A stretch of 47,897 nucleotides of DNA from contig CAJVPJ010000084.1 of assembly GCA_910592205.1 (NCBI GenBank), forward strand, positions 1 through 47,897, written 5' to 3'. Under the pieces are notes generated by a model that worked only from the letters and a program-made list of their open reading frames with translations, was not told the DNA's origin and made no database searches. The translations under genes and the position numbers were made by a program. Shown here piece by piece: positions 13,794 to 39,965 of this stretch. Every line of letters begins with the position of its first letter. Within the stretch, counting starts at the first letter, position 1. Origin of the DNA: Paraglomus occultum. Its lineage: Eukaryota > Glomeromycota > Glomeromycetes > Paraglomerales > Paraglomeraceae.

Positions 13794-13834
<41 letters not shown>

Positions 13835-16893: not shown

Positions 16894-19032
16894 CTATGCT
16901 CTTCTCTCCTTTTCCTGAACCAAAATTATTGGTCGAAGTGCTGGATCTTCTTTCTTCTTCTCTTCCGTTGCTTTAGCTCCCAATACCCAATTACCGAGTA
17001 AACTCCATCTCTTCTGTGAAGAACTAGCAGAATTGCGTCTATTTCTCTTGGGCGGATCTGCTAACGGTCTCACGAAGCCACCGTCTTCACCATAATTGGC
17101 AACCCTCGATGTAGGCGAACTGGGTAAGGGAGATAATTGATCACCTTGTTCGTCCATGCTAACCTTATGAACCCCCGTCTTGATCTTGAAGGGAACTTCG
17201 CTGGATGTAAGTGCGCCGCTCATCGTTTTGCGACGTTCGAGTTTCTTGCTTTCCGGGGGGGGAGTTGCCAACGCAGGCCCGGACGAGAATGTTCGCGAAT
17301 GGCCGAATGTAGTTGTTGTCGGACTGGCCGATGGTGCGGGGCCATTAATAGCGAGAATGTGTTCTGCACCAGGTGTTTCTACTATGCGGTTGAGGATCTT
17401 GTCGATATAGAGTTGCAAAGCCTTGTTGGCCTTTTCAACTTTTGCAACTTTCTCTTCAAGTTCTGCATTTTTGCTTTCAAGTTCTATTGTAACATTGTTT
17501 AGACAAATGCAAATATTATTTTGTGAGCTTAAGAAGTAGTTAGAGTAAAATGAGAACCATACTATTCCGAATCCGACTCACTCTCTATATCACTGCGATC
17601 ACTCTCTTTCTGCACATCCTCACCAAACGATCCATTTCCTCCAGAAGCACGATGTAATTCTGCCGCAAGGTCGTTGTTAGCTTTGATTCCATTGGCGGTC
17701 GGTTCCTTGTTTTCGCTTCTTGTATCATGATCGTTATACTAGAATGAATTGAGCATGTTACCACCTCTCCTGTTATAATGCTTCCCAAGGCTGGTTAAAT
17801 CATTTAAAATACACTACCTGCATGATCGGGTTGAGCATGAATTCCCCTTTGATAGTCTTTTCATGCAACAGGCTCTGGAATACTTCATTCTCTTCCATAA
17901 GTGACTGGTTGACAGTTTTAACTTGTTCAAGTTCATTTTTCAGCTGTTCAATGTCTGCCTGATTTTTCTCGTTTTCGGACGTTTTCTTTGTAACTTCTTG
18001 ATTAGCGTGGAGAACGTCATCTCTTAGTTGTTTGATGAGTTGATCTCGCTCTTTGATGGTTGCCAACGCCTTCTTGGCATCGCGATTTGCATTAATCTGG
18101 GCAAGTTCCGTTGCAGGAGAAGGTTTGGAAGAGTTGATAGCATCACCTGATGTGGAATGAAGGTAAAAGTTAAGAGTCTGTAAAGGTATTATGAAATACA
18201 ACAGCATAATATATTTATTCAATCAAATCGTACCATTAGAATCTATGTGACCAAGCTTATGGAATTGCTCATTTTGTTGAGCAAGAACACCGACAGTAGC
18301 CTGAAGGGCTTTCACTTGTTCTTGGAGCTCTGCTTCGCGTTCTTGCCGGTCCGTTTCGCGATCCTGCCAAACTAGTCGGTCTTTCTCGAATGCTGTTGCC
18401 TAATTAATCCAGAATACATAATAATTTTTATTACTATCCCGACCCGTCATGCTCTAATAATGTATGCCGAACAATAAATTACCTCCTCTCTCATCTTTTT
18501 CTCAGTCTCTCGTTTGTTCTTCAAATAGGCAGCATTTTCTTTCTTCAATCTTTCTACTTCCTGATTTTGCTGATAAAGTTCAGATTCAAGACGTGTGTAA
18601 TCTTTATGCTGTTCATCTAATTGCTGTTGAAGTGCAGCAATTTTCTTCCGGACATAAGTGTTTTCGTTAGCCAACGTCGTATTTTCATTGTGTGCGGTGT
18701 TGAGTTCTTCGCGAAGCTAGAATTTGACCAAGAATATAATGGTTATGAATACGGTGAAATGCTTTGTTATCATCGTCGATTAGCTCTCGTTACATAATAT
18801 ACACACAAATAATTAAGGCACAAGGTCTATGATCACATTAGTTTCGATTAGGATAATACAGCCGTACATTATTCTCTAACAACTGTTGACGATGTCGCAT
18901 ATAATGCTAATATATGCCATCACTGTATAGTCCTGTGCGAGTACTCTCTCCAAGGCCAGTTAAGCTTACCGTATTACACTCCTGTTGGGCTGTTTCCAGA
19001 TCTTTTTGTAAAGAGGCCGGATCTATGGACAT
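16894..19032 (-). CDS. Conserved fungal-type long coiled-coil protein, 512 aa
   Basis: Six exons (19032-18970, 18716-18483, 18399-18234, 18146-17818, 17738-17582, 17483-16894) join in phase to 512 residues. Residues 1 to about 270 are almost continuous heptad-rich coiled coil (for example 'KKIAALQQQLDEQHKDYTRL' and 'IEQLKNELEQVKTVNQSLM'). They end in the conserved-looking 'LLHEKTIKGEFMLNPIMQ'. A short serine/acidic linker ('SDRSDIE') leads to a second coiled coil, 'KNAELEEKVAKVEKANKALQ' plus 'LYIDKILNRIVE'. The last 150 residues are proline/serine-rich and basic with 'SQKRWSLLGNWVLGAK'. No motor, GRIP or kinase motif is present. Similar proteins occur in other fungi (from memory), but I know no assigned function. 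A scaffold role at membranes or the cytoskeleton is only a guess. The fifth exon was read in the frame that leaves matching splice phases, not the alternative open frame at 17585-17788. Confidence 0.8.
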
Positions 19033-21791: not shown

Positions 21792-21865
21792 GCTTCCTTA
21801 GCGCAGTTGGTTAGCGCGCGAGTCTCATAATCTCGAGGTCGTGAGTTCGATCCTCACAGGAAGCA
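21792..21865 (+). tRNA. tRNA-Met (CAT), elongator type
   Basis: A 74-nt cloverleaf with discriminator. Acceptor arm GCTTCCT pairs with AGGAAGC over 7 bp. D-arm is GCGC/GCGC with AGTTGGTTA loop. The anticodon loop is CTCATAA (anticodon CAT) on a CGAGT/TCTCG stem. Variable loop is AGGTC. The T-arm is GTGAG-TTCGATC-CTCAC. The sequence carries good internal A and B boxes (TAGCGCAGTTGG, GTTCGATCC). No intron, and no encoded CCA, as expected in a nuclear gene. A TTTT at 21869-21872 is a plausible Pol III terminator. The D- and anticodon-arm sequence matches eukaryotic elongator rather than initiator Met. Confidence 0.96.
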
Positions 21866-25013: not shown

Positions 25014-25239
25014 ATAAGCTATAAAAATATTTATTATGAATAACATAAATAATAAACAAAAAGTAACCTACTTACTACTGTGACACTGACTACCAAGATT
25101 TTACTGATTACAATAGCAGTTTAAAAAAGCTCTGAGAGGACCTGAAGAACTCAGCAACTGAGTCTATAGAAAATAGCTGAAAAAGACAATGAGAAATAAT
25201 AATAGTCAGTAAATTTAATAAACCTCTTGACCAACCAGT

Positions 25240-25743
25240 TTGAATTTAGGACGAAAACAATTTTACTCCCAAAATAAATTACCAGTCGAACTAAATCTAA
25301 TCATTGAAGAAATGGTAGCTGCTGATTATACTCATCCTCTTCAACAGCTGGCTTACAAGGAATTAGTTGAAAGAGACCAAAAAAGAGGAGAATATTTAAA
25401 AGAAATTGCTGATTGTCAAAAACATATAAATGATTTGGAAAAAGAGGAGCGAGAATATTTAGCTAACCTTCAAGAGGCCATCAATACCAAGATGCCTGGC
25501 ATTCAAGAATGGCAAGAAAAAGCCAGAAAAGAAAAAAAAATTGAAGAAATACTTGCTAAAGAAATTAAGGAATGGCGAGAAAAACAAATCCCTAAACCTT
25601 TACCTTCTTTAGCCAAAAAACAAACCAGAGTCAAATTGTTAGCTAATAAAATTAAGACTCAATTCCAACAGGTGGTGAAATTTCCAGTATTTAAAGAAAA
25701 GCCAACTAGTTCCCATCTCTTCCTGGGATTGTGTATCTACTAA
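25240..25743 (+). CDS. Coiled-coil protein, 167 aa, probably element-borne
   Basis: An open frame of 167 codons encodes a highly charged, largely helical protein. Residues 20-110 read as coiled coil (for example 'ADCQKHINDLEKEEREYLAN' and 'IQEWQEKARKEKKIEEILAK'). A basic region 'LAKKQTRVKLLANKIKTQ' follows. No catalytic motif is recognised. The listed ATG is the first in frame, but the frame may extend by splicing. It lies 230 bp downstream of a terminal repeat shared with two other loci and immediately upstream of another broken coding stretch. I therefore infer that it belongs to a mobile element or an element-captured gene rather than a free-standing host gene. Confidence 0.45.
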   Translation: MNLGRKQFYSQNKLPVELNLIIEEMVAADYTHPLQQLAYKELVERDQKRGEYLKEIADCQKHINDLEKEEREYLANLQEAINTKMPGIQEWQEKARKEKKIEEILAKEIKEWREKQIPKPLPSLAKKQTRVKLLANKIKTQFQQVVKFPVFKEKPTSSHLFLGLCIY

Positions 25744-26317: not shown

Positions 26318-27197
26318 AACACTTCGGTGCATATACATTATACAACCCTCTCTCATATATAATATACTAGCTCTAACACGACGATTTGCTTTGCGAGCTG
26401 GTACCATTATCATCAGGGTTAAACCAAAGATCACCGCTTATGCATAATCGCATGGATTACAGGGCTCATGCAGATACTCGTGAACCACGTGGAAATTTTA
26501 GACACTGTTGCTCAATATGCATGGTTTTTATTGGATTGCACGACACTCAAGTTTTATCCCCGGTAAAGTAAAGCTTGATATTGACACAATTCTATGAAAG
26601 CTTAGCGTTAATATTAGCATCAGTTAATTTTAACGTAAATCGCTCGCCGTCAGGAAATCAGGTGACACATAAATTACCATCTCAGCACAAACATGTTTTA
26701 TGTAGTTTGTTGAATAGTAACTACACGATTATCTCTTTCTTTCGCGAAAAGAAATGCCAAAAAGAGGTAGTCAATGTAAAGTTTGTTCGTGGGCATTGGT
26801 TCTGCAAGACAACCGTTAATTATTGTACACGCGCATACGATATTTATTGCTTGCGATATATTCTCATGACTACTTCCCAGTTATTTATACAATAATCTAA
26901 AGACTTGATAGTATTTACGTTTGAAAAACCCCCGCTGATCAGTTCTAACAAATTTAACGACAAAAAATCCCGTATATACCGATATAATTATTTTCCACAA
27001 ATATAAACGGTTTCCTAAACACTGGGCTTTCCAAAAAAAAAAAAATTCTTTGAACATTCATCTTTCCCTTTTAAACCTAACCCTAGCATGAAAATATAGG
27101 CTTAACATTCATAATAATAAAGTTGTGTTTATAAAAGTAAGTTCACCGCTTGCTGATATTTCATTAGGATACACGCACACGCGGTTTGTCCTTTTGA
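26318..27197. other. Intergenic region, possible further coding relics
   Basis: The plus-strand frames at 26386-26571 and 26575-26895 have no domain. A short run near 26465-26560 can be read as ILVNHVEILDTVAQYAWFLL, which looks protein-like and may be more of the broken gene to the left. A poly-A run and AT-rich sequence follow. No promoter element can be assigned. Confidence 0.35.
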
Positions 27198-27647
27198 TTA
27201 TTCAGGCCCGTATGGGGATCCGCAACAAGATGAGCTCCAAGTACCGTCATAGCATTGGCACTCTGGATCTGGATCAGGGGTATCGCCACCTGGATTTCCA
27301 CCTGGATTTCCACCTGGATTTCCACAACAAGATGAGCCCCAACTACCGTCATTACATTGGCACTCTGGATCAGGATCAGGGATATCGCCACCTGAATTTC
27401 CACCTGGATTTCCACCTGGATTTCCGCAACAAGATGAGCCCCAACTACCGTCATTACATTGACACACTGGGTCAGGTATATCGCCTGGATCTCCGCAACA
27501 AGATGAGCCCCAATGACCGTCAGTGCATTGGCACTGTGGGTCAGGTAGATCGGTAGGTGCTGGGAGCGAGAAAACGACGCAGACGATTGACAGAAGAAAA
27601 GCGATTGTCAAAATTTGGAATAATTTTATTGATTTTATTGCGCGCAT
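27198..27647 (-). CDS. Secreted tandem-repeat cysteine-rich protein (CQC..CCG repeats), 149 aa
   Basis: An intronless 149-codon frame. Residues 1-27 form a clear signal peptide: basic n-region MRAIKSIK, hydrophobic core 'ILTIAFLLSIVCVVFS', with likely cleavage near residue 27. The mature part is four repeats, each with 'PDP.CQC.DG.W.SSCCG' (cysteines at 39/41/50/51, 62/64/73/74, 96/98/107/108 and 130/132/141/142). The repeats are separated by proline/glycine/asparagine linkers (GNPGG repeated three times between repeats 2-3 and again between 3-4). Sixteen mature cysteines in strict CxC...CC pairs suggest disulfide or metal-binding repeat modules. No dibasic Kex2-type site is seen. I do not know the family. 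A secreted effector, wall-associated or metal-binding role is inferred only from the signal peptide, small size and cysteine pattern. The repeat DNA leaves long overlapping frames on both strands (27125-27556 + and 27164-27454 -). I prefer this frame for its signal peptide and repeat logic. A TTATAAG box lies about 45 bp upstream of the ATG. Confidence 0.75.
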   Translation of the reverse strand: MRAIKSIKLFQILTIAFLLSIVCVVFSLPAPTDLPDPQCQCTDGHWGSSCCGDPGDIPDPVCQCNDGSWGSSCCGNPGGNPGGNSGGDIPDPDPECQCNDGSWGSSCCGNPGGNPGGNPGGDTPDPDPECQCYDGTWSSSCCGSPYGPE

Positions 27648-36258: not shown

Positions 36259-39200
36259 ATGGGTAAACGAGACAAGAAAACCGGAAAAGGTGAGAATGCT
36301 TGCGTCGTAATGACTAAAGAAGGGCCTAATTTACAATAACATTAATTTATAGGTCGTCTGGATAAATACTATCACTTGGCGAAAGAACAGGGTTATCGTG
36401 CTCGTTCTGCTTTCAAGCTCATTCAAATAAACAAGAAATACAATTTCCTCGAAAAGTCGCGCGTATTGATAGATCTATGCGCTGCTCCTGGTGGTTGGTG
36501 AGTTTTCTAAAGAACCGGTGTAGATTAATCGAATGTGTCGCTGACATTCTCATTTGCTGTTCAAAGGTTACAAGTAGCTAAAAAGTATATGCCCACTCAG
36601 AGTCTTATAATAGGTTTGAAAACAATCATTAAATGAATTGCAATGGGTAAAGCTTTTTTCCTTTCCGTTTAATTAACCATCGTATCGGTAGGCGTCGATC
36701 TAGTACCAATAAAACCTATACCCGGGATAATAACGTTACAAGATGACATTACAACTGACAAATGCAGAGCAAACCTACGAGCAGAATTAAAGCACTGGAA
36801 AGCTGATGTGTGAGCATTTACGAAACAACTTTTTTTTCTTCTTCAAATTATTCACCGTTTTTGATTTCCTTGTTTGCATTATTGAAAAACAACTAGAATT
36901 TTGCACGATGGCGCTCCCAATGTCGGTGTTGCATGGATACAAGACGCATATTCGCAATGTGAATTGACATTGATGGCTTTAAAACTGTCTGTTGGGTTTC
37001 TGACGCAAGGAGGTGAATAAATAGTAAAGAGCAAGAAACATTCTTATTATTGTGTGGGATCAATAGGATGACAAGAATCGTTGTAACATATTGAGGATGA
37101 TTTTATGGTAGGAATCTTTGTGACTAAGGTGTTTAGATCAGCAGACTATAATAACCTATTGTGGGTATTTAATCAGCTGTTTAAGAGCGTTGAAGCGACC
37201 AAGCCAGCGTCTTCGAGGTATGGAATTGTGATTGCGTGTTTGTGGTGTGACGCAAAAAAAGGTTCATGTCTTTTTCTCATATCAATTTCCGTCTACCTTT
37301 ATTCTTTTAAATCAGAACCGTTTCTGCAGAAATATTTGTAATATGTCGCGATTTTATAGCTCCCAAAAAAATCGACCCAAAACTTCTTGATCCACGTGCA
37401 GTATTTAAAGAACTCAATGCTGGACCATCTCGTATTCTGGATATCCTTCATCCTGAAAAAAAAGCGACACCGAGAAGGATATGAAGATGGCAACTACACA
37501 TTATTTAAATCAGTATCTGCCATGGAATTTATTGATTCGGAAGATCCCATCAAACTTCTTGGAGATGTTAACCAAATAACATTCGATAATGAGGAAGCGA
37601 TAAAATTGTGTCAACACAAATGTACAAATGAAGATATTAAGGCTTCGTGTGAGGATATTAAAGTCTTGGGAAAGAGAGAGTTTAAGGATTTGCTAAAATG
37701 GAGGAAGAAAATTAGAGAGTGGGTAAGTTCAAGTCGTCAGGAAAAAAAAAAGGCACAGGAGCTGATGAGACAGTTGTTAACCCCGTTTTCACAACGACAG
37801 TTGGGTAAAGATGGAAAAAAAGAAAAAGAACATGACGAAAAAGAAGATGATGCCAAGCAGGACGTTGAACCAGAGGATGAGGATAAGGCCATTCAGGAAG
37901 AGGTACGATAGAAAAAATTGTTAAACACAACGTCACTTATTTTTTACTTGCAAGTTTAATTAATGTTGTGCAATGTTGTAATTCAATAGCTCGACAGACT
38001 CGTGCAGGAAGCAAAAGCAAAAACAAAGAAACTGCGACGTAAAGCAAATGAGAAACGACAGAAGAGTGTTGTTCGAATGCAACTTAACATGGTCACACCT
38101 GCTGAGATTGGAATAGAAAGTAATCAAACCGGCGAGCTTATGTTCGATCTCAAGGAAGTCGATGGAACAGAGGCAAGTATATTGCTTATTTCCATGATTG
38201 CTTATGAATGCTTGGTGCTAACATGTCTCGCTTAACGTGCATGTGGTTACTAGGCTTTAGACAAATTGCGGAAAGGCAAAGGGGAAGTAGTTCTCGATGA
38301 AAAAGAACTTGATAATGATGATATCGTTATTGGCGAAGGTGAAGATGAAAATGCCGAGGACGTTGAGGATGTTGATTCTGAAACTGCCGCGTTGGAGGCA
38401 GAGTTTGATGCTTTGGATGAATCAGGCAGTGACAATTTCGATGAACTGGAGGCTGACATAGACGACTTGTAAGTTTTATTTAATACGCGTATATATATAC
38501 TTAGCATTATTATGGTTAATGTAATGCAACGTCGGCATTCCGTACCATTAGATACGAAGAATATAAAGAGCGCAGAGCGGAACGAGATGCGAAATATGCC
38601 GCACTCAAGCGGAGAGCGGAAAAGGTCAATATCGGTTGGCGGTTTGGGTTTTCTTTATATCTTTGTGCGCAACTTTTTCTTCTCACGAAACATCTTAATG
38701 CTATTAGATGGAGGGATTGTCAGAAGATGATGCAGCCGATGGCATGGAAATAGATTCAATCTCAAAAGACAATGATGCAGAAACGAGTGATAGCGATGTA
38801 TCAGATGAACAAGAAAAGATGGTTGAACAAGACCAAGGTAGAATATAGCGTATCGGCTTTACTTTGTCTTTAATTCTAATTGACACATGCATATCATTCA
38901 TCAGAACAATCCGAGTCGGGAGATGCAAAAAATAATACACTCAAGCGCAAAGCAGAAGAGGTTAATAGTTAAGATGATTATGAGCATTTGAGCGTATTGC
39001 TGTTATATCTCACCGGATATTTTTGACTTTCAGATGGATGAGTCCTCAGACGACACAGAAGACGATGATATAGAAATAGTTCCAAAGGCAGATGAAAGCG
39101 AAGAAGAAATGTGGGATGCTAACGCGTCAGACGAAGACGAGGAAAAAATGAAAAAAGCTCAAAGTAATATATTCATCAATATTGGGTTTGCTCCTGATAG

Positions 39201-39965
39201 TCTCTTCATGTTTATGGCCATATGCACATATTCAATGCTTTATTATCCCGCGAGCAATTAACTTGACCGCTTCATTTTCGGACTCTCTTTCCGTACTCAT
39301 AGCCTACGGATTAACAACAGCCGAAGCGATAACTCTAGCACAGCAGTTAGTAAACCGACAAAAAACGACTGCGTCTCTAATCGATGACGGGTTCAATCGT
39401 TATGCTTTCAATGATCGCGCTGATCTGCCATCGTGGTTTCTTGATGACGAAACGAAACACAATAAACCCAATCTGCCCGTTACCAAAGAGGCCATACAGG
39501 TTCTACGAGAACGTATGAAAGCGCTTAATGCTCGACCGATCAAGAAGATTGCAGAAGCAAAGGCTAGGAAAAAAATGAGGGCAGTGAAAAAATTAGCAAA
39601 ATTACAGAAAAAGACCGAAGCCGTTGCCGAGGGTAAGGACATGACAGAGAGAGAGAAGGCAGAGGTTATTGCAAAAATGGTGAATAAAGCAGCAAAGACA
39701 AAGAAAAGGCAAGTTAAAGTAGTGGTTGCGAGAGGGCCAAATAGAGGAAATAAAGGACGGCCTAAAGGTGTAAAGGGACGTTATAAGGTAAGAACGGATG
39801 CGTGTTTCGAGAGTATTTTATTTTGTATAATGTGCAGAATATGAACACAACCACTATTTTGTTTTTTTCTTGCTCCAGATGGTGGATGCGAGAATGAAGA
39901 AAGAAGTTCGTGCTCTGAAAAGAGCCGAGAAGCATGGTAAAAAGTCGAAAAAGCAAAAGCGATAA
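36259..39965 (+). CDS. SPB1: SPB1: rRNA 2'-O-ribose methyltransferase (FtsJ family) for 60S biogenesis
   Basis: Nucleolar methyltransferase acting on 27S pre-rRNA (Gm2922 in yeast). Fifteen exons: 36259-36289, 36353-36497, 36567-36613, 36692-36809, 36897-37012, 37112-37217, 37316-37902, 37990-38172, 38254-38468, 38552-38624, 38708-38837, 38905-38960, 39034-39163, 39303-39787, 39879-39965. They give about 835 residues (yeast 841). The FtsJ domain (1 to about 210) has SAM motif '[18 protein letters not shown]' and catalytic K32-D118-K158-E193 in 'RSAFKL', '[10 protein letters not shown]', '[11 protein letters not shown]' and '[11 protein letters not shown]'. A middle domain follows ('[20 protein letters not shown]', '[20 protein letters not shown]'), then acidic linkers and the Spb1_C domain ('[20 protein letters not shown]', '[18 protein letters not shown]'). 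It ends in a lysine-rich tail 'KKSKKQKR'. Two oddities: an A8 run near 37456 puts exon 7 one base out of frame (seven A would restore it), and intron 8 appears to use a GC donor (GAG|GCAAGT). Confidence 0.93.
37454..37466 (+). other. A8 homopolymer frameshift in SPB1 exon 7
   Basis: Exon 7 reads ...CAT CCT GAA AAA AAA GCG ACA in the frame fixed by upstream splicing and hits TGA shortly after. The conserved continuation ([18 protein letters not shown]) is in the next frame, which is restored if the run has seven A. The remaining exons close only with this one-base correction. It could be an assembly error, a true indel, or (less likely) recoding. Confidence 0.85.

Follow-up and report, generated by a model that had tools for sequence, protein, structure and literature searches.

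A 149-residue open reading frame (ORF) on the minus strand of a Paraglomus occultum contig (CAJVPJ010000084.1, 27647..27198) very probably codes for a protein, putatively secreted, in which four CQC-x-DG-x-W-x-SSCC modules of 13 residues are strung on acidic Pro/Gly/Asn linkers. The window, by which we mean the whole stretch of DNA analyzed, is 47,897 nucleotides long. As classes, small cysteine-rich proteins and secreted proteins built of repeats are already well described in arbuscular mycorrhizal (AM) fungi, as far as the cited portions of two accounts go (PMC5293756, PMC4617103), and what is new, judged from the sequence, is a class member whose module matched no family in the searched libraries. 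Because orphans are common in AM fungi, one more orphan secreted protein is unsurprising; in R. irregularis, 688 of 872 secreted proteins are without a Pfam domain, according to the part of PMC5293756 that is drawn on here.

The ORF is a single exon of 149 codons plus the stop (27198..27647, minus strand), with an ATG start and a TAA stop, and because the stop-to-stop frame is 158 aa, an in-frame stop lies shortly upstream of the ATG. Residues 1 to 27 (27567..27647) resemble a signal peptide, with a K/R start, a long hydrophobic core, and V-x-S before the probable cut, and they are followed by an N-terminal spacer, LPAPTDLPDPQ (residues 28 to 38; 27534..27566). The repeat array then begins with module 1 (CQCTDGHWGSSCC, residues 39 to 51; 27495..27533), linker 1 (10 residues, GDPGDIPDPV; 27465..27494), and module 2 (CQCNDGSWGSSCC, residues 62 to 74; 27426..27464), and continues through linker 2 (21 residues; 27363..27425), module 3 (again CQCNDGSWGSSCC, residues 96 to 108; 27324..27362), linker 3 (21 residues; 27261..27323), and module 4 (CQCYDGTWSSSCC, residues 130 to 142; 27222..27260). 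The protein closes with the C-terminal tail GSPYGPE, which together with the stop codon occupies 27198..27221, and all of these features are on the minus strand. Each module has the arrangement C-x-C-x8-CC, and 16 of the 17 cysteines lie beyond residue 27, every one of them within a module (4 × 4). Both long linkers contain GNPG-type repeats that correspond to 12-bp units in the DNA, and Tandem Repeats Finder also reports a 102-bp tandem unit at the locus (2.5 copies, 92% matches, score 439) and a 69-bp unit (2.0 copies). The initial annotation had described a 149-residue minus-strand ORF, four near-identical modules with CxC and CC pairs and 16 mature cysteines, Pro/Gly/Asn spacers that themselves expand, and an uneven DNA repeat; the ORF list and translation, the residue counts, the 12-bp linker units, and the three repeat periods agree with it on each of these points.

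The part beyond residue 27 has an unusual composition, with 16 Cys (13%), 25 Gly, 20 Pro, 15 Asp, and 4 Trp, neither Lys nor Arg, and a computed pI of about 4; the repeat protein also has two Tyr. Its overall Cys fraction (0.114) ranks second among the 73 ORFs in the window that start with ATG and span 60 aa or more. The top-ranking ORF (0.117), at 17167-17502 on the plus strand, has 13 Cys in 111 aa and is antisense to a longer minus-strand frame (16894-17577), and it is perhaps an artefact. When a crude signal-peptide rule is applied to the same 73 ORFs, three pass, including the repeat ORF, which has the highest hydrophobic core of the three (3.19, the others being 2.48 and 2.37), in keeping with the signal peptide proposed earlier. 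The four 13-residue modules place the protein among the repeat-containing proteins (RCPs), in which a motif of 5 aa or longer occurs twice or more (in the portion of PMC4617103 cited), and its 149 aa and 17 Cys (11.4%) place it among the small cysteine-rich (SCR) proteins, which have fewer than 200 aa, at least 2 Cys, and at least 3% Cys (in the portion of PMC5293756 cited). It is without the [KR]R-flanked repeats of Kex2-processed repeat proteins (KEPs), there is no dibasic pair anywhere in the 149 residues, and because there is no Lys or Arg beyond residue 27, the mature part lacks a Kex2 site. A Kex2-processed peptide precursor was considered and rejected, as there is no dibasic site.

A protein search covered about 5.8 billion proteins, restricted to those that had exact words in common with the query and were 0.55 to 1.75 times as long, and of the 2,422 candidates scored, two matched at an E value of 10 or lower: one relative, P0001 (E = 4e-59), and a chance match (E = 5.7). 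At 113 residues, P0001 carries three modules, each of them CQCNDGSWGSSCC, joined by 17-residue linkers. Its first 39 residues are identical to those of the repeat protein at 37 positions, differing at residues 7 and 28, and the Cys spacing and linker style are kept while the copy number differs. The C terminus of P0001 is two residues past a CC pair, and the sequence may be incomplete. Its source label is 'src', and no contig is given. Plass was used to assemble a Soil Reference Catalog (PMC10864179, as cited in part), which 'src' may denote; P0001 would then stem from reads assembled at the protein level, and its repeat count is possibly unreliable. The suggestion that unit number may vary is thus met by differences in module number and linker length, with the qualification that P0001 is known as a protein alone and informs neither on silent change nor on whether repeat changes keep the frame.

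Within its own 32.3-Mb, 1,408-contig assembly the repeat gene is a single locus, with no paralogues found, and a degenerate D-G-x-W...C-C-G pattern has four matches assembly-wide, all within the repeat gene, compared with one for the reversed-pattern control. The only Pfam match is DUF7068 (E = 5.8, 7.5 bits, below the cut-off of 27), so that no carbohydrate-binding family in Pfam is matched; the NCBIfam profile search gave no match, and among PDB sequences there is nothing credible, the only one listed being an integrin beta-2 chain (E = 0.09). In these three libraries, therefore, the module has no named family, as the initial annotation had it. A search for longer relatives, in which the mature part was tripled as the query (candidates of about 185 to 588 aa, the 7,988 with most shared words being scored), gave two at an E value of 10 or lower (4.4 and 8.6), neither of them a relative, and tblastn confirmed none of the 83 pattern stretches in prokaryote species genomes and none of the 7 in viral contigs.

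The repeat periods of 102, 69, and 12 bp are all multiples of three, and it is therefore unsurprising that a plus-strand ORF antisense to the repeat gene (27125-27556; 143 aa from a GTG, 114 aa from the ATG at 27212) is also open. Such periods keep several frames open, and there might accordingly be no protein gene on the minus strand, with the signal peptide arising by chance on a three-divisible repeat or the plus-strand ORF being the real one. Codon log-odds, for which one gene (ACC) served as the reference, are higher in the plus-ORF frame (28.3 bits) than in the gene frame (13.6 bits), as they are for the N-terminal 38 codons alone (10.6 versus 4.4), and they reach 38.9 and 25.0 bits in two frames bearing three stops each. 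The odd amino acid composition may depress the score of the gene frame. Given the residues, codon choice in that frame is weakly favorable relative to what base composition would yield, with 84 of 2,000 random versions scoring equally high. The replacement/silent ratio between the four repeat copies points the other way, at 0.63 in the minus-strand gene frame versus 1.87 in the plus-ORF frame, these ratios being based on small numbers and given without computed significance. The other four frames give 1.36 and, with stops in the compared units, 3.84, 1.10, and 0.48, so that one stop-containing frame is lower than the gene frame. Across the four copies of the 14-codon module, eight columns vary: in three of them a Cys codon changes silently, and the remaining five belong to codons 4, 7, and 9, on both sides of the DG and just past the Trp.

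Whether the plus frame might be the conserved one, as the initial annotation had allowed, thus receives a divided answer, the replacement ratios speaking against it and the codon log-odds for it, and in view of the latter the minus strand is the likely rather than the proved coding strand. We nonetheless judge the minus-strand ORF to be very probably the gene, mainly because the signal peptide and the cysteines, 16 of them laid out 4 × 4, share one register. P0001 shares the signal-peptide part, which is located outside the plus ORF, and the ATG-started plus-strand ORF fails the crude signal-peptide rule. The absence of a minus-strand protein gene is, on this balance, quite improbable.

Two AlphaFold models of the protein are of low confidence (mean pLDDT of 54.3 and 52.5); in both, the ten-residue blocks made up largely of module score 53 to 63. 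Each has an N-terminal helix (residues 5 to 27 in one and 3 to 27 in the other), and both predict, for every module, one short strand or bridge residue within CxC and a second at the Trp (40/46, 63/69, 96-98/103, and 130/137). These residues flank the x-DG-x turn in each module, and the CC pair has no strand in either model.

The genome in which the gene resides is in agreement with a Paraglomus-like mycorrhizal fungus, which lends indirect support to the earlier inference, made from the letters, of a plant-associated fungus. The window has a GC content of 31 to 41% in 2-kb steps, near the 37% reported for two Paraglomeraceae assemblies and above the Glomeromycota average of 27% (PMC11134847, in the part cited). 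Published Paraglomus genomes, at 39.6 to 49 Mb (PMC9453076, in the part cited), exceed the assembly in size. A Paraglomus 18S primer, allowing up to two mismatches, and an exact universal SSU pattern each have no match, and the assembly may lack the rRNA gene. Two type I fatty-acid synthase (FAS) domains have no match in the assembly, an absence that is suggestive only, because the controls failed (one domain matched a bacterium only, below the cut-off, and the other matched none); for acetyl-CoA carboxylase, the match extends across the whole central domain. Genes for fatty-acid synthesis are reported to be lacking in AM fungi, P. occultum among them, in the portion of PMC9453076 cited. The assembly also has 12 Crinkler matches (PF20147), all over the cut-off and outside the window, one with three in-frame TGA codons. 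The window itself contains a pure TTA microsatellite (13.3 copies, 13794-13833), a tRNA-Met gene with anticodon CAT (21792-21865, plus strand), and exons of the rRNA methyltransferase Spb1 at 37360-37911 and 39152-39844 (plus strand), with Pfam matches to DUF3381 (E = 1.5e-43) and Spb1_C (E = 1.3e-72). A neighboring plus-strand ORF (25231-25743) is charged and coiled-coil-like and has no Pfam family over the cut-off; 9 of its 87 candidates match at an E value of 0.01 or lower, with 70 to 89% identity and the labels lgn, ena, src, and jgi, as compared with the single relative of the repeat protein.

As to function, we tentatively favor, at somewhat less than an even chance, a multivalent protein of the wall or apoplast whose hairpins are stapled by disulfides. 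Removal of the signal peptide would leave four 13-residue units on an acidic chain, and the four Cys of each unit (CxC plus CC) would be joined by two disulfides, which is the simplest pairing. These disulfides would hold together a small hairpin that turns at x-DG-x and displays one Trp past the turn, and the units would be strung like beads on flexible Pro/Gly/Asn linkers. In the hyphal wall or outside the cell, such a chain would most likely serve for multivalent, low-affinity binding, either to a polysaccharide or to a partner on a surface, and its valency and reach would change as modules and 12-bp linker units were gained or lost. We infer each of these steps, from translation and secretion to disulfides, hairpin, location, and binding. 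The 4 × 4 placement of the cysteines, the paired strand or bridge residues of the models, and the Cys spacing kept in P0001 speak for this reading; the low confidence of the models, which have no strand at the CC pair, and the lack of a carbohydrate-binding match in Pfam speak against it. Action in the wall has been proposed for fungal secreted repeat proteins without Kex2 sites, in the portion of PMC5293756 cited. More doubtfully, CxC-x8-CC with its x-DG-x-W core could be a new minimal extracellular disulfide module, born in one fungal lineage and strung in arrays, where the restriction to one lineage derives from the two word-limited protein searches. The Cys frame is fixed and replacements fall at residues 4, 7, and 9, and the array may therefore be a natural multivalent scaffold with evolving valency and reach.

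The same cysteines could instead hold metal: in each module, CxC and CC would bind a soft metal ion (Cu, Zn, or Cd) much as a small metallothionein site does, and the protein would act as an extracellular metal-thiolate buffer in the wall or rhizosphere. CxC and CC motifs occur commonly in metallothioneins, and a density of 4 Cys per 13 residues on an acidic chain with a pI of about 4 would suit this role, but a typical metallothionein resides in the cytosol and contains few aromatic residues, whereas this protein begins like a secreted one and places a Trp in each module, and the secretory path tends to oxidize thiols to disulfides; we regard metal buffering as unlikely. A host-directed symbiotic effector, acting in the apoplast or in the host cell through modules that bind a plant target, also has a low probability in our estimate, and it would overlap the favored wall or apoplast protein if the binding partner of the latter were a plant one. 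In plant-associated fungi, secreted proteins that are small, rich in cysteine, and built with repeats are the ones usually put forward as effector candidates (PMC4617103, PMC5293756, in the parts cited), and the 12 Crinkler matches and two unmatched FAS domains are compatible with such a lifestyle. However, membership in the class is a weak predictor, since the 141 small cysteine-rich proteins of R. irregularis have neither an expression cluster nor an enriched motif in the portion of PMC5293756 cited.

If expressed, the multivalent wall or apoplast protein that we favor would show in compact form how a fungal lineage can turn a tiny disulfide unit into a multivalent protein of the surface or apoplast, and copy number would be an evolving trait of the array. 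The regular 4 × 4 Cys layout makes the repeat protein easy to test biochemically.

Among known systems, somatomedin B has a CxC followed by a CC at a distance similar to that in the repeat module. The module differs from both somatomedin B and EGF-like domains in being shorter, with fewer Cys, and the Pfam search gave no significant profile match. Metallothioneins share the CxC and CC motifs; the repeat protein departs from these cytosolic, aromatic-poor proteins in its signal-peptide-like start, the Trp in each module (4 Trp in all, plus 2 Tyr), and a Cys share of 13% beyond residue 27. With KEPs (PMC9769878; Rep1, Hum3, and Rsp1 in PMC4617103, both as cited in part) it shares a repeat architecture of the presumably secreted kind, and its linkers hold XP dipeptides (IP-DP-DP) of the type trimmed by Ste13, but it has no [KR]R site and no Lys or Arg beyond residue 27. 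The secreted RCPs without Kex2 sites (in R. irregularis, PMC5293756; PMC4617103, in the parts cited) combine short motifs in repeated copies with a signal peptide, which is putative in the repeat protein; like it, they lack dibasic sites, and their function is mostly unknown. The repeat protein is set apart from them by a unit that is a fixed four-Cys module, and the two word-limited protein searches gave no sequence relative among them. The AM-fungal SCR proteins share its length of less than 200 aa and its Cys content above 3%, and whereas those of R. irregularis have no enriched motif in the portion of PMC5293756 cited, the repeat protein carries its cysteines in a 4 × 4 layout on flexible linkers.
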